Origin: Caldithrix abyssi DSM 13497
GTDB taxonomy: Bacteria; Calditrichota; Calditrichia; Calditrichales; Calditrichaceae
DNA length: 64,000 nucleotides
Direction: 5' to 3'
Assembly (NCBI RefSeq): GCF_001886815.1
Contig: NZ_CP018099.1
Location: 2,850,501-2,914,500, forward strand
This document shows, one piece after another, positions 7,768-56,591 of this stretch (position 1 is its first letter; each line of letters opens with the position of its first letter). A program made the translations under genes and the position numbers. The notes beneath the pieces are model-generated. The model was given only the letters and a program-made list of their open reading frames with translations, did not search any database and was not told the DNA's origin.

Positions 7768-8050
7768 GGTGAATGGCCGGGTGGTTGAATGGTTGATCTA
7801 AAAGTCAGGGGGTGAAAGGGAAACCGTTTCAACGGTTTACGCGAGTGAACTGCGAGAAAAAATGTGTCAGCGGTGGACGCTTTTCACCGTGATCGAGTTG
7901 GAGCCGTGCAAAATGTTCCTTTTCGTGTTGGAATGAATCCACCAACGCCAGAACGTCCGCCTGTGCTTCTAAAACCTGCGCACAAAGGATGACTTCACCA
8001 TCCAACACTGCTTATATTTCCTTTATTTACGGCTTTGGCAAAATTCCATT
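7768..8050. repeat. Spacer with AACCGTT palindrome
   Basis: Intergenic stretch carrying a copy of the dispersed palindrome AAACCGTTTCAACGGTTT at 7821-7838, the same family found near 28.1-28.4 and 53.4-53.9 kb. A fragment GGTTGAATGGTTGA at about 7783-7797 resembles text at 51.35 and 56.75 kb. No gene is evident. Confidence 0.65.
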
Positions 8051-27936: not shown

Positions 27937-28694
27937 AAAAATCTCCTTCTTGACTTCGTTACAGGTTTTATTCTAAATAATTAAAAGTTACAAATTTAAA
28001 GACTGAACTAAATATAATCAAATTCAATTTTTAGACAAAACTTATTCTTTGTTTTTCCGGTGGTTTTTGCTGGGCGTGGGGATACTGGTTCATTTTATTG
28101 GGGGAAAGGCAGTGGTTGAGGGGGAACCGTTTTAACGGTTTGCGAATTTTCACAGGGCAGTTTTTTTCACAGTATAAGATAAATTGGACAAAGATAGCGG
28201 TTGAGCGCGGTTAACGGTGTGCCGGCTCTCTCGCCTTTTTGTGGGCGGGGCGCCATCGTTGTTCGAATTTTGTCCACCGTTTCAACGGTGTAAAAACGCA
28301 TAATGTACGGTATCATAAACGTGCCGTTGGAGAAGGCCGGAAAACCGTTTTAACGGTTTGCGGCGCCTTTCACCTTCCGTTTTTTAAACGCATTGAACAC
28401 CTAAAGCGACTCTGAAACCCGGAATCAATTTAACCCCAGCGAACACAGATATGACGCCGAAAGCGCCATGACCGTACATAAACATTTGGATTATTAAGAC
28501 AAGAATTGCTGCGCCGATCTCTAAAGGGCGCTACATCTTAATTTTCCCGGCGGCTTCCTCTTTACTGCCTACTGCTTACTGCTTACCGCATTCTGGCATG
28601 AATTTTTCTGCAGTTGTGAAAAAGAGATTAAAAGACAGGAAAAAACCTCCCTGTTTTTAAGTTCAGTCCATTCCCTGAATCCTCCTCCCGTTCG
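27937..28694. repeat. Gene-free spacer with three AACCGTT palindromes
   Basis: About 760 bp without a credible gene. It contains three members of the palindrome family: AACCGTTTTAACGGTT at 28125-28140, CACCGTTTCAACGGTG at 28275-28290 and AAACCGTTTTAACGGTTT at 28342-28359. Between 28563 and 28590 there is a short TACTGCTTACTGC-type simple repeat. The promoter of the TPR-argD run must lie near 27940-28000. Confidence 0.7.
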
Positions 28695-51743: not shown

Positions 51744-52805
51744 TTAGTTTTTTTTATCTTTCCATTCGTAGAAATAGGCGCAGTCGTATTTTTTATTTTC
51801 CTTTCCGTCAAACACGGCAAAGTCTGTCGGCCCGTAAATGGAAGCAGCGCCAAATTCGCCCTTTTTATTTACTGCGTATAGCTTTAAACTGAAACTCGGA
51901 AGGCCCTTTTTATTCTTCAGATTTGGAAGTTTTGCGTGATCAATAACGCGTTTTAGTACTTTTTTACAGGCTTCTTCTGGAGAATACCCTTCTCGCATGT
52001 ACTCGACCACCTGATACGAAGATAAATTCTTCAGGTTTTCTTCACCGCGACCGGTAGAGCCGCAAGCGCCTACTTCATTATCGACATATAAGCCAGCGCC
52101 AATGATCGGGCTGTCGCCCACTCTGCCCGGTATTTTGAACGCCAGCCCGCTGGTGGTAGTGACGCCCGAAAGGTTTCCATTCAAATCCAGGCCCAGGCAG
52201 GTAATGGTGCCGGTAATATCAAGCAATTTTTTATATTTTTCAGGAATTTCTTCCAGAGGGGGCAAGAACCAGTCGTCTTTATCGCTCAGGCTTTCCTTCC
52301 AGTACAGCCAGATTTTCCGCGCTTCATCGGTTAATAATTCTTCTTCTTTAAAACCATGGGCGCGCGCAAATTTCAAGGCGCCCTCGCCAACCAACAAAAC
52401 GTGATCGGTACGCTCCATAACCAGCCGGGCTACTTTAGAAGGGTTTTTTATATTGCGCAGCGATGCTACCGCTCCGGCGTTGTGTGTGGGGCCGTGCATT
52501 ACGCAAGAATCCAGCTCAACAACGCCTTCTTCGTTTGGCAAGCCGCCATAACCAACAGAATGGTCTTCCGGGTCCTCTTCTACGATATTTACGCCGGCAA
52601 TAACCGCATCCAGCGCATCCGAACCGTTAAGCATCATCTCTGCGGCCTTTTGTGTGGCTCTTAATCCATTTTTACTGGATACCGCGATTACTTTCCCCCG
52701 CGGGGCGTTTGTATTAAAAGAGGCCGCTCGCAGAAATTTTCCTTTTAAAACAGCTCCGCTTAAAGCCGTTAAAAAAGTACTTTGTAGAAATAAACGACGC
52801 TTCAT
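51744..52805 (-). CDS. Exported asparaginase-2/glycosylasparaginase family hydrolase
   Basis: 353-residue Ntn-hydrolase expected to self-cleave before a Thr and act on isoaspartyl peptides or GlcNAc-Asn. A twin-arginine-like signal (MKRRLFLQSTFLTALSGAVL) suggests Tat export. DGSDALDAVIAG-like NGSDALDAVIAGVNIVEEDP, DHSVGYGGLPNEEGVVELDS and GNLSGVTTTSGLAFK with GRVGDSPIIGAGLYVDNEVG are canonical. The nucleophile site reads ITGTITCLGLD; Gly rather than the glycosylasparaginase Asp precedes the Thr, as in isoaspartyl peptidases. GGGAG precedes the ATG. Monocistronic. Confidence 0.9.
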   Translation of the reverse strand: MKRRLFLQSTFLTALSGAVLKGKFLRAASFNTNAPRGKVIAVSSKNGLRATQKAAEMMLNGSDALDAVIAGVNIVEEDPEDHSVGYGGLPNEEGVVELDSCVMHGPTHNAGAVASLRNIKNPSKVARLVMERTDHVLLVGEGALKFARAHGFKEEELLTDEARKIWLYWKESLSDKDDWFLPPLEEIPEKYKKLLDITGTITCLGLDLNGNLSGVTTTSGLAFKIPGRVGDSPIIGAGLYVDNEVGACGSTGRGEENLKNLSSYQVVEYMREGYSPEEACKKVLKRVIDHAKLPNLKNKKGLPSFSLKLYAVNKKGEFGAASIYGPTDFAVFDGKENKKYDCAYFYEWKDKKN

Positions 52806-53406
52806 GATGTATGATCTCCCTTTTAATGAAATTATTTATGATCAAAAAACATATCGCCCTTATCCAGAATGTCTATGTAAAAATCAATGGATTATTTCTC
52901 TTTGTCAAAACACCGCCTTTTGACTTAAATGTTAAAGCATACTGCGCTGTCAAAAATTTCAAGATACAAAACAATGGAATGTTTTGCAACAATGCTAACA
53001 GAGATTTTTACCCGCACCTCGTTCTTTGTGAATGAACAACACATTCCTGTTCAGCGTAACCATAAAGTCAGTACCGCCTAAAAGCGATGCAAAAAAAATC
53101 TGTTTCATAAATAAATGTTAGCGCCGACCTTCGCTATCGGCGGTTTCACCATTCGTCACTCCTCAAAGGCAACAAGCTATGTGAATGATGCACACCAATC
53201 ATAACGCATTTTATTTAACCTTTAAGGAGATTTTAGCTTTTCTGAAAAATATGCGTCCAAATTTTAAGCATCATGGTCTCGGCTGATTTTTTTTTACTCG
53301 AAATATTCTTTGTGGCGGGGCCTGGAATGGCCAGTCAACTTTTACGCTCTGTACTTTTTTCCTGGGCCGACGGCGGCGGTATTCTTTCACGCCGGAATAA
53401 GTTGAA
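52806..53406. other. Gene-free spacer before the tandem repeat
   Basis: About 600 bp between the asparaginase-family gene start and the 223-bp repeat. I see no gene, RNA or convincing regulatory site beyond the RBS region of the hydrolase. Confidence 0.5.
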
Positions 53407-53945
53407 AACCGTTGAAACGGTTCCTTTTGCATTCCTGCCCGAACGATCATCCCACCGTTGAAACGGCGGGCTATTTTCAGCCATCCCTACGGGATTTTAA
53501 GTTGACGATCTACTGGTACATCCCTTCCTTGTTACGTGGGAAGAGATTTTTCACGCCGCGTTACGGATTCCCTGTGGAAAGAAGAGCGCCTTAGCAATGA
53601 ATGATTTTTCTTCTGTGTACATTGTTGTAAACCGTTGAAACGGTTTCCTTTGCATTCCTGCCCGAACGATTTTCCCACCGTTGAAACGGCGGGCTATTTT
53701 CAGCCATCCCTACGGGATTTTAAGTTGACGATCTACTGGTACATCCCTTCCTTGCAATGTGGGAAGAGATTTTTCACGCCACGTTAAGGTTTCCCTATGG
53801 AAAGAAAAACGCCTTAGCAATGAATGATTTTTCTTCTGTGTCCATTGTTGTAAACCGTTGAAACGGTTCTTTTTGCATTCCTGCCCGAACGATTTTCCCA
53901 CCGTTAAAACGGCGGGCTATTTTCAGTTATCCTTACCGGATTTTT
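53407..53945 (+). repeat. 223-bp tandem repeat, about 2.4 copies
   Basis: Units start with AACCGTTGAAACGGTT at 53407, 53630 and 53853, exactly 223 bp apart; the third is partial. Each unit has two palindromic CCGTTGAAACGG-type sites about 45 bp apart, then CGGGCTATTTTCAGCCATCC, CCTACGGGATTTTAAGTTG and a 3' part ending CTTCTGTGT(A/C)CATTGTTGT. Open frames within it are frame artefacts. Gene-free sequence continues to 54116. Confidence 0.95.
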
Positions 53946-54116
53946 CAATTATCCAGTCAATTTTTACATCCTTTTCCAGAATCACAATCAGTAGAAGATC
54001 TCACATCCCGCCAGGCAGGAGACCGTTCAACCATGTTACGATGCCTTTCAATCACGCTTCTCGCTCGTACAAGCATTAGGGCTTACGAAGAAAATCGTCT
54101 CAAGCGTTGGTTTTAT

Positions 54117-56591
54117 CTACTGTCGCACCATATTGGCTTTATCCAGTTTCCATTGATTTGAAAAATAGCCGATCGCTTTGATGGCGGCAAGTCCATAATT
54201 GTAAATAGCGGATTGAAACACCATAAAATCCGGATAGCCGTTGCCTGCGTAAAGATATTTTTGCGTATTGGTGGCGCGCATGCCTTTAATTCCCGTGCCG
54301 CCGACCACGCCCACCAAAGCAAAATCGCTGTCTCTGCGCGGAAAAATAAATAAAGCCGCAAGATCGTTTCCCTTAAGCGTTTCAGAGCCGATTTTAATTT
54401 TTCCTTCTAAAACCTGGATGGGGCAATCTTTTAATAATTTTTTCCAGGCGCCATTTGTCCGGGCGTTGCCGTAAAGAATGACGTTTCTGTCTTGATATTT
54501 TTCGGGATCGAATTCCCGATCCAGAATAATATCCACAGAACCATTCCCCTGATACCAGAACACTTCTGCATCATATCGGGCTTTTTCAAGAGCCCAGGCG
54601 TTCTCTTCTTTTGATCCTTTGCTGCCCACAACAAATAAGACCTGATTCCGGAAAGCGTCTTTAAAGCCACCGTAACGATGCGGTCCTTTATCCTGCCTGG
54701 GCCATTCGCTTGTCTTTACCCAGCGATTATCAATCTTTTCAAAGAAGAGAGCGCCTTTTGCCGGCCAGGTTAAATCTTTTAAAATCTGTCCGTCCAATTC
54801 AACCGTAACAGGTTGTCCCGGAGTTAATGGGCTTAAATCAATTTTCAGCCGTGCGATATTCTGGGTTTTACCGTGTAATTTGCGATTGCCTGGATCGACT
54901 TGAATGTCTATTTTGCTGAACTCAAACGCTCGCTGCTGGGCATAAATGGTAATCCAGCGGTTGGTAGCCGAAATACCCGGGCTGGCCGTAACAAACTGGA
55001 TTTGTCTGATCTGCTCCGGGGTGGGACGCGCGTGCCGCGCAAAAAAATCAAATAATGGCGGCCAGTCAACGCAATCTGCGCCGGGCTCATCGCTACGATC
55101 CCACCAGTGTCTGGCGCCAGGTTCTTCATGGTACACAAAGTCGCGGTGCCCTATTTCCTTCAAAATTTCTACCATTTTGCGCGATTCTTGAACCGGAACA
55201 ACACGATCAGAGTCGCCATGAATAATGTACACGCCCAGTTGTTTATAATTTTCAGCTAACAGGGGTGTTCTGCTGGGCGCATTGGCGCGCAGCAACATTT
55301 TCTCAACCGGGCCAGTCTGGCCTGAGGATTCTGGTTTTACATAGGTAAAATAACTGATCCATCCGGCGCTGGGGCCAATCGCGCCAAATTGATCCGGATA
55401 GTGCGCGCCAAGCTGCCAGGTCCCGTGGCCGCCCATAGAATGGCCGGTTAAATAGATGCGCGCCGGGTCAATATTCCATTTTTGTTTTACGGTATTCAGG
55501 ACTTCCAGGGCATCCAGACGCCCCCAGTCTTCCCAATTGTATCCAAAAGGGCGACGATTGGTAGCCGCTACAATGTGTGTCCATTTTTTAGGAAAGTAGG
55601 CCCGGGCCTGGTTCAAAGCTTCCACGCCTGCGCCATGTACAGAAAGCACCAACGCCCGGGGAGAACCATCATGCATCTGAGCCGGATTTATGGCAAAATA
55701 CTGAACGCTGCCGTCAATATGGCTGATAAAGGTATGTTTTTGAACATCCTCTGTACCTACCACTCTTAAATTAATTTTAGTCTGCGCCACACGCTTTCCT
55801 TTCCAATTCAGGTAAAGCGTAACGGGCAGATCGCCTTTTTCTTGCGGCGCTCGACCTTTAATGAAAAAGGGAACCTTGCGCACCGAAAAGGGCTGAATGA
55901 TCGGTACTTTTGTTTCCGGAATAAGCGGATTGTCTGAGGAAATGGTTACATCCTTCAGGGGGCTGGCCGTATTGTTCAGCACCACCACGGCGGCCGGTGC
56001 ATCCATACGCTGCCCGCTAATCAAATCCGGCAGGGTCACATCATTGGCGTTAAAGGCAAGGTCTGCGGAAGGGGCGTGAATGACCACTTTTAATCGTCCG
56101 CGATAACACTTAAATAAAAACGTATTTTGCCCTTTCTTTAACTGTACCGGTAAAGCAGATAAACCAAACTCTGGTCCGTGCGGACTGTTTTGATCATGGC
56201 TTTGATACGGATTTCCGACTCTGGGTTGACCGTTAACATACACCAGATTATGGCCGCGCCCATCCAGAATAATTGTTTTTTCTTTTTCTGCGTTTATGGT
56301 AAAGAAGGCGTAAAAAGCGCGTTTGTCTTTGGGACGATACCATCCGCTGCTATCTATTGTGATTTTTTGCCAGACTGCCCTGCCTCTTTGTCCGAATTTA
56401 ACTTGCTGTCCGGGGAACGGCAATTGGAAGTTGCCATCGACCAGCGCCTGTTCCAGCGGATCTACCTGCACAAAACTCCAGCGATCGGCGTGCGGGATTT
56501 CCAGAATTAAATATTGATCAATAATTTGTTGGGCAAAAACAAAGGGATTAAAAAAGAGTATGATTAAAAGGAAGAATTTAAAACGGTACAT
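54117..56591 (-). CDS. Secreted alpha/beta-hydrolase (esterase/peptidase S9-like)
   Basis: 824 residues with a signal peptide (YRFKFFLLIILFFNPFVFAQ). An N-terminal beta-rich part of about 290 residues precedes a hydrolase core: LVLSVHGAGVEALNQARAYF, nucleophile elbow LTGHSMGGHGTWQLG, Asp in YIIHGDSDRVVPVQES and His in PGARHWWDRSDE. The C-terminal 270 residues include a second beta-rich domain. It resembles carbohydrate-esterase or phospholipase/carboxylesterase families linked to plant polysaccharide use. No T9SS tail. RBS GAGGAGG. Monocistronic. Confidence 0.85.
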   Translation of the reverse strand: MYRFKFFLLIILFFNPFVFAQQIIDQYLILEIPHADRWSFVQVDPLEQALVDGNFQLPFPGQQVKFGQRGRAVWQKITIDSSGWYRPKDKRAFYAFFTINAEKEKTIILDGRGHNLVYVNGQPRVGNPYQSHDQNSPHGPEFGLSALPVQLKKGQNTFLFKCYRGRLKVVIHAPSADLAFNANDVTLPDLISGQRMDAPAAVVVLNNTASPLKDVTISSDNPLIPETKVPIIQPFSVRKVPFFIKGRAPQEKGDLPVTLYLNWKGKRVAQTKINLRVVGTEDVQKHTFISHIDGSVQYFAINPAQMHDGSPRALVLSVHGAGVEALNQARAYFPKKWTHIVAATNRRPFGYNWEDWGRLDALEVLNTVKQKWNIDPARIYLTGHSMGGHGTWQLGAHYPDQFGAIGPSAGWISYFTYVKPESSGQTGPVEKMLLRANAPSRTPLLAENYKQLGVYIIHGDSDRVVPVQESRKMVEILKEIGHRDFVYHEEPGARHWWDRSDEPGADCVDWPPLFDFFARHARPTPEQIRQIQFVTASPGISATNRWITIYAQQRAFEFSKIDIQVDPGNRKLHGKTQNIARLKIDLSPLTPGQPVTVELDGQILKDLTWPAKGALFFEKIDNRWVKTSEWPRQDKGPHRYGGFKDAFRNQVLFVVGSKGSKEENAWALEKARYDAEVFWYQGNGSVDIILDREFDPEKYQDRNVILYGNARTNGAWKKLLKDCPIQVLEGKIKIGSETLKGNDLAALFIFPRRDSDFALVGVVGGTGIKGMRATNTQKYLYAGNGYPDFMVFQSAIYNYGLAAIKAIGYFSNQWKLDKANMVRQ

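Follow-up and report, generated by a model that had tools for sequence, protein, structure and literature searches.

The 223-bp tandem array in the 64,000-nt stretch of Caldithrix abyssi DSM 13497 DNA analyzed here (the window) is probably built of REP-like arms that would be recognized as single-stranded DNA, spread in trans and, more tentatively, amplified locally, rather than of an RNA gene. The arm has a defined anatomy of three hairpins, it lies beside Y1-HUH transposase genes with a prevailing orientation in several phyla, and its elements are spread through genomes in many copies.

The array and its three-hairpin unit

TRF reports a single tandem array here, at 53401-53944, with a period of 223, 2.4 copies, 92% matches and a score of 941. 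A repeat search of the window finds two full 223-nt copies, 93% identical to each other, and a 98-nt part that occurs three times (Table 1). As the sequence-only reading had it, the three starts are spaced exactly 223 and 223 bp apart; its pair of palindromes about 45 bp apart in each unit is also confirmed, at a measured distance of 46 bp (core starts 53409/53455, 53632/53678 and 53855/53901). The paired palindromes of every unit are of the CCGTTGAAACGG type, the second palindrome of unit 3 being CCGTTAAAACGG. Each unit reads HP3 (AACCGTTGAAACGGTT), 27-28 nt, HP1 (CCCACCGTTGAAACGGCGGG; CCCACCGTTAAAACGGCGGG in unit 3), a 12-nt linker starting with CTA, and HP2 (ATCCCTACGGGAT). The HP1-CTA-HP2 core of units 1 and 2 scores as a member of Rfam family RF01687, Acido-Lenti-1 (at least 37 bits), and that of unit 3 falls below this score. 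All units point the same way (+++), so the array consists of single arms in direct tandem and not of the inverted pairs that define REPINs. Three further AACCGTTNAAACGGTT palindromes lie elsewhere in the window on the minus strand, with a related CACCGTTTCAACGGTG between the copies at 28125 and 28343.

Table 1. Array units, hairpins and related palindromes, in window positions.
Feature	Position	Strand	Source
Tandem unit 1 (223 bp)	53401-53623	+	TRF and repeat search
Tandem unit 2 (223 bp)	53624-53846	+	TRF and repeat search
Tandem unit 3, partial (98 bp, arm only)	53847-53944	+	TRF and repeat search
HP3, unit 1 (gene-proximal type hairpin, AACCGTTGAAACGGTT)	53407-53422	+	palindrome search
HP3, unit 2	53630-53645	+	palindrome search
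HP3, unit 3	53853-53868	+	palindrome search
HP1-CTA-HP2, unit 1 (RF01687 Acido-Lenti-1)	53451-53496	+	Rfam, 51.1 bits
HP1-CTA-HP2, unit 2 (RF01687)	53674-53719	+	Rfam, 51.1 bits
HP1-CTA-HP2, unit 3, HP2 decayed	53897-53942	+	31.4 bits, under the Rfam gathering score of 37
HP3-type palindrome, solitary	7822-7837	-	pattern search of window
HP3-type palindrome (AACCGTTAAAACGGTT), 218 bp from the next one	28125-28140	-	pattern search
HP3-type palindrome, partner of the 28125 copy	28343-28358	-	pattern search

Copies in this genome and in others

The genome (4,978,541 bases, one contig) contains 29 matches to RF01687, 14 of them over the cut-off, and 14 well-known control genomes contain none. The palindrome AACCGTTNAAACGGTT is found exactly at 38 places; with up to one mismatch there are 42 matches on the forward and 39 on the reverse strand (palindromic places count on both), and because the backward-read control gives 1 and 0, this copy number is not due to chance. 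A whole-genome blastn search with window positions 53300-54050 returned 53 matches, self included. To describe the core, we used a model, R1, of 46 positions and 13 pairs built on 21 diverse core sequences taken from the window's phylum: 49 printed Rfam cores gave 26 aligned sequences after removal of near-duplicates and L089, and 21 after removal of five cores of 45 or 49 nt. The R1 helices covary, with 97.4% of cells paired, 9 of 13 pairs changed on both sides, and a covariation score of 0.571 compared with 0.161 in shuffles. Covariation is likewise strong in matches near transposase genes, where the alignments are fitted to the model.

R1 has 120 matches in the genome at E ≤ 0.01. Leaving aside the 18 weakest (E 0.002-0.01), the remaining 102 (E below 1e-3) form 26 clusters, several of which are tandem inverted pairs with a unit of ~271 bp; in the arrays near 2.83 Mb, inverted pairs (-+) occur nine times. 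The 38 exact HP3 places and 120 core matches are what is expected of REPs, short palindromes in many dispersed copies. The sequence-only reading had held a lack of other copies or of a conserved fold against its own proposals; copies are found by the palindrome, blastn and R1 counts alike, and the two R1 helices covary strongly.

A 54-bp tandem array of nine copies, with units CTATAATCATGTCATCCCTTCGGGATT, lies at ~754774-755245 of the genome (L310). Its first copy looks like the left half of HP3 fused to the right half of HP1, a hint that the two palindromes have exchanged sequence. A strand bias of HP3 was considered and set aside: the GAA strand lies on the G-rich strand in 17 of 20 clusters (two of 22, near the presumed origin, were left out, and the three exceptions include the window array). 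Tested against 0.5 this gives p = 0.003, but p is 0.044 when the expectation is set at 0.65 to allow for gene orientation; that baseline is rough (20 samples of 10 kb), and a hand recount raises it to 0.68, weakening the bias further.

In other genomes the pattern recurs. R1 matches are present in 21 of 22 named genomes, with up to 115 per genome, and RF01687 matches in 13 of the 22, over the cut-off in 10; these 22 are a subset of 57 and were mostly picked for their R1 matches. Among the 150 matches listed there are 30 cases of close neighbours, arranged -+ in 19, +- in 7, -- in 3 and ++ in 1, and the -+ pairs among these listed matches, 135-194 bp apart, all come from three Acidobacteriota (G043, G045, G046) and Desulfomonile (G054).

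Arms beside Y1-HUH transposase genes

The sequence-only reading was right that no such transposase gene lies in the window: the three Y1_Tnp (PF01797) genes of the genome, L031, L032 and L033/L180 (protein P0001), are all outside it. They are diverged (L031 and L032 are 33% and 29% identical to P0001) and carry the motifs of TnpAY1 subclass 1.2, with Phe in place of Tyr in P0001. We examined two sets of loci with such genes: an own-phylum set of 62 loci, taken from 77 transposase matches after removal of 15 fragments or weak matches, and a named set comprising all 57 genes found by a scan of GTDB contigs. Genomes that have the gene contain 1-8 matches, fragments included. In 113 aligned proteins (of the 119, six shorter than 90 aa were left out), the subclass 1.2 motifs are conserved, WQ in 98 and Q in 110, and the catalytic residue is Tyr in 106, Phe in five and a gap in two; membership in the subclass (HUH, WQ, Y---Q--HH, ~150 aa) is thus by motif and not by the clusters of Quentin et al. 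The Y---NP motif of RAYT (TnpAREP class 2) proteins is not the pattern here: the residue four places after Tyr is Q and not N in 110 of 113. The search for a RAYT gene that the sequence-only reading proposed has a divided answer, with no classical class 2 gene but with Y1-HUH genes carrying Y---Q--HH elsewhere in the genome.

R1 matches crowd these genes. In the own-phylum set, the density of matches of at least 20 bits falls from 2.30 per kb at 1-150 bp to 0.46 (151-300 bp), 0.39 (301-600 bp), 0.07 (601-1000 bp), 0.010 (1-2 kb) and 0 (2-3 kb). In the named set the corresponding values are 1.27, 0.74, 0.26, 0.025, 0 and 0.023 per kb, and at 15 bits or more the ratio of the first bin to the 1-2 kb bin is ~100 for the own phylum and ~70 for the named set. 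Three of the R1 rows (L066, L067, L070) themselves adjoin genes (L142, L145, L156) and match by construction, a flaw from which the named set is free. Around IS110 genes, the control (30 of 34 matches, those with loci), no match of at least 20 bits occurs in any of 30 loci (87 kb), and the two of at least 15 bits are both in one locus. The intergenic nature of the flanks cannot account for a density gradient this large.

A match of at least 20 bits lies within 300 bp of the gene in 23 of 62 own-phylum and 17 of 57 named loci, on both sides in 12 and 9 of them, respectively; as a group, then, the genes are flanked by their own REPs, as in a REPtron, with the reservation that the loci are not independent, several being from closely related organisms (e.g. 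Flavobacterium) or sharing one genome. In roughly two loci out of three (39 of 62 and 40 of 57), there is no R1 match of at least 20 bits within this distance. The flank count takes in matches from ~15 bits upward, with L205 (named set, 15 bits) also outside it. Within 300 bp and at 15 bits or more, the elements point outward in 53 of 72 own-phylum and 40 of 51 named cases: upstream of the gene they lie opposite to it rather than in the same sense (25 to 11 in the own phylum, 23 to 5 in the named set), and downstream in the same rather than the opposite sense (28 to 8 and 17 to 6).

Most gene-adjoining R1 matches fall under Rfam's cut-off. Matches at the gathering score lie within ~300 bp of the gene in three of 20 own-phylum loci scanned (L142 and L145 twice each, L156 once) and one of 15 named loci (L217), the scanned loci (20 of 62 and 15 of 57) having been picked among those with R1 matches. 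Scans of 18, 15 and 20 loci bring no Rfam family besides RF01687 up to its gathering score. Acido-Lenti-1 has been linked with group II introns; in these same 18, 15 and 20 loci that link finds no support. Across 40 genomes, RF01687 and the gene are both present in 20, RF01687 alone in 3, the gene alone in 11 and neither in 6, so that their presence is weakly linked.

The flanks also reveal the structure of the arm. Outward from the transposase gene a flank can carry, in this order, HP3, ~25 nt, HP1, CTA, ~8 nt and HP2, and because the gene flanks show this HP3-HP1-CTA-HP2 order, the window unit can be recognized as one arm, repeated. A strict search for three hairpins with perfect stems finds 17 arms among 232, in 15 of 119 loci (one of the 17, in L194, looks fortuitous by eye). 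No such arm turns up when the full set of 232 is shuffled 20 times by mononucleotide, in the reversed arms or on the wrong strand. The HP3-HP1 gap in these strict arms has a median of 25 nt (IQR 24-26, range 13-27; 27-28 in the window), and the HP1-HP2 gap a median of 11 nt (IQR 10-12, range 4-13; 12 in the window): arm spacing is near-constant while arm sequences diverge. Perfect hairpins with stems of at least 7 occur in 98 of 230 arms compared with 37 of 389 control gene ends, and such hairpins followed by CT number 28 in arms and 1 in control gene ends. A lone hairpin followed by CT, with the other two missing, is less telling than the full arm (33 real, 14 reversed and 8 wrong-strand arms). 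Arms of the same locus resemble each other in inverted orientation in 35 of 110 loci and in direct orientation in 25 of 110, the latter being expected for palindromes.

The foot of HP1 resembles the GT[AG]G guide that REPs carry (PMC6006769) without matching it. On the minus strand it reads ATAG in the window; NTAG stands at this position in 19 of 21 rows of set A3, 46 of 84 of A4 and 21 of 60 of A5 (the named set), and GTAG is rare, in 1, 5 and 11 of the same rows.

Individual loci show how the hairpins vary. An AACCGTT-type HP3 palindrome lies beside the transposase genes of L123, L140, L150, L180, L181 and L183; AACCGTTNAAACGGTT itself flanks the genes of L140 and L150 and those of two Neomarinimicrobiota loci, L181 and L183, and in L181, L183 and L150 a second hairpin follows 23 to ~31 nt beyond it. 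At L033/L180, AACCGTTTAAACGGTT precedes the start and a AAACTGTTAAAACAGTTT-like sequence comes right after the stop. Some of the loci without a strong match have other palindromes: in L169, from the same genus, the gene is flanked by another family, GGTCATAAATGACC. Inverted GTCATTCCCGC...GCGGGAATCCA palindromes lie within ~125 bp upstream of a subclass 1.2 type gene in L137 (G029:C297); this pair, which resembles CGTC-tagged REPs, is the one case that a simple pattern finds in 119 loci.

Phe replaces the catalytic Tyr in five proteins: L180 (own genome), L123 and L169 (same genus), L172 and L216. L180 and L123, from two species, are sisters (66% identical by blastp, FastTree support 0.986) within a clade of five tips that also includes L140, L160 and L150 (support 0.85). 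Four members of this clade (L180, L123, L140, L150) have AACCGTTNAAACGGTT in their flanks, and L160 has AACCGATGAATCGGTT instead. The other two genes beside this palindrome, L181 and L183, branch outside the clade, so the palindrome tracks the protein lineage in part only. The Phe gene of the own genome, L033/L180, has no R1 match in its flanks. L032 keeps the catalytic Tyr and has R1 matches of 30 bits at 32 and 625 bp from its 3' end. Because the AACCGTT-flanked gene is the one with Phe, either L032 more probably drives the family or the family is no longer mobile. A 244-bp tandem array of 2.9 copies (L314 1947-2663, genome ~608446-609162) ends ~640 bp from L032.

Tandem arrays with a period of at least 60 give 21 rows within 600 bp of the genes (15 of 119 loci, 132.6 kb) and five rows further out (620.3 kb). 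IS110 control loci hold five such rows in 87 kb; tandem arrays are therefore not peculiar to Y1-HUH genes.

Recognition DNA or RNA

How such arms could be used can be proposed from their arrangement. The arm (HP3, 27-28 nt, HP1, CTA, HP2) stands in mirror image on the two sides of a Y1-HUH gene, and elsewhere in the genome arms occur singly, in inverted pairs (REPINs) and in tandem arrays. The transposase would recognize the hairpins in single-stranded DNA, probably while the DNA is being replicated, with the TAG at the minus-strand 5' foot of HP1 serving as a putative counterpart of the REP guide tetranucleotide, and would move or copy the arms in trans; the window copies would have come from such an event. 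More tentatively, the 223-bp array may then have expanded in place as identical arms recombined or replication slipped from one to another. The protein-binding option of the sequence-only reading is compatible with this putative pairing of transposase and arm, since the transposase is predicted to bind the hairpins. Its REP/REPIN option was right in kind, with two changes: the partner is not a classical RAYT, and the window copies are in direct tandem and not in inverted pairs.

Rfam's own reading is that of a structured small RNA, with the plus strand of the two hairpins transcribed and working as RNA, and Weinberg et al. 2010 (PMC2864571) call Acido-Lenti-1 'probably' RNA. The scores of units 1 and 2 and the strong covariation of both helices are in its favor, although hairpins formed by single-stranded DNA suit covariation equally well. 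Structured RNAs tolerate G-U far more than A-C pairs. The elements have 15 G-U and 25 A-C pairs (201 distinct rows, 1800 cells, weak and partial matches included), whereas 32 tRNAs encoded in the same genome have 28 G-U and 1 A-C in 384 cells of their acceptor and T stems (Fisher p 1.9e-7). Reading the elements on the opposite strand gives 25:15, a split not different from even (p 0.15). The 15:25 ratio argues against selection at the RNA level. Folding one arm (53407-53498), as the sequence-only reading had suggested, gives a modest z of -1.67 for plus-strand RNA and a somewhat better -2.78 for minus-strand DNA. Its structured-RNA option agrees with the Rfam record, but the pairing has no RNA-type wobble bias and the elements crowd transposase genes on both sides. 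Nor are mirror-image flanking of a transposase gene, inverted pairs and tandem arrays features of an RNA gene. The array's neighbours are two long minus-strand ORFs (51744-52805 and 54117-56591), the element strand is antisense to both, and all six promoter-like sites found are on the minus strand. We consider a small RNA unlikely.

It is also improbable that the arms are simply the left and right ends of an ordinary IS200/IS605 element moving as a unit, with the dispersed copies as deleted MITEs. The protein family is the same: NCBIfam labels all three own-genome proteins as IS200/IS605 transposases, and L032 weakly matches the solved transposase 2f4f (E 0.0067). IS200/IS605 ends, however, bear hairpins on the same strand, and most arms in the present loci are inverted and directed away from the gene. 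Nor is there the multi-copy, near-identical unit of an insertion sequence, the genes being few and diverged next to as many as 120 elements. Equally, an array kept by the host for protein binding or termination, in chromosome organization or transcript ending and with its mobile origin now irrelevant, appears very unlikely. Host uses of REPs are known, and terminator-like sites number 11 across 52700-54200 against a shuffle mean of 1.8. Such a role leaves the association with transposase genes unexplained, and the array is absent beside the G002 orthologue of a flanking gene, where the other neighbour differs and synteny is broken, leaving no clean empty site.

Mobile, REP-like recognition arms are the reading that we prefer, and the system can be compared with those already described. 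Relative to RF01687, the core scores as a member (units 1 and 2) but makes up two thirds of a three-hairpin, transposase-flanking arm whose wobble pairs are not RNA-like. REP/REPIN/BIME elements and their RAYT (TnpAREP, class 2) share the small dispersed palindromes, inverted pairs, arrays and flanking of a low-copy, diverged Y1-HUH gene; they differ in the protein (Y---NP rather than Y---Q--HH), in the foot, here mostly ATAG or TTAG, and in that the elements described here have three hairpins at near-constant spacing, with single arms in direct tandem in the window. CGTC-tagged REPs are likewise palindromes of Bacteroidetes and other phyla that form inverted dimers, but the likeness of 'CGTCCC' in HP2 and HP3 is superficial, and De Nocera et al. 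2013 (PMC3733652) report that their stems measure 8-9 bp, that they have CCA tails and that no transposase is associated with them. The closest protein relatives are those of TnpAY1 subclass 1.2 (DH[VI]H, WQ, Y---Q--HH, ~150 aa, low copy), for which the table of Quentin et al. 2018 (PMC6006769) enters 'no' under REP, whereas here arms flank many genes bearing these motifs. A REP/RAYT-like system with a subclass 1.2 partner would be new, since the subclass is listed without REPs. Among the papers listed from a mostly open-access literature, none connects flanking palindromes with Acido-Lenti-1 or with subclass 1.2 in its title or abstract; PMC2864571, PMC13298647 and PMC10059132 contain the name Acido-Lenti-1.

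The broader proposal, whose chances we judge to be about even, is that the whole Acido-Lenti-1 family is no RNA but the outer part of an unrecognized REP/REPIN system, in which Y1-HUH proteins of subclass 1.2 would recognize three near-constantly spaced hairpins in single-stranded form, in at least Acidobacteriota, Bacteroidota, Planctomycetota, Neomarinimicrobiota, Desulfomonile and the window's own phylum. It includes a Phe relative kept in two species of the own genus, perhaps binding hairpins without strand transfer. The Rfam label of Acido-Lenti-1 as a small RNA probably needs revising. If the proposal is true, a candidate small-RNA family of unknown role would become transposase recognition DNA. 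Acido-Lenti-1 matches in genome annotations would then be read differently, among them those in a 2026 Tannerella paper, which suggests from such matches that they may regulate neighbouring protease genes (PMC13298647), and a Y1-HUH subclass listed as having no REPs would gain a substrate open to in vitro test.
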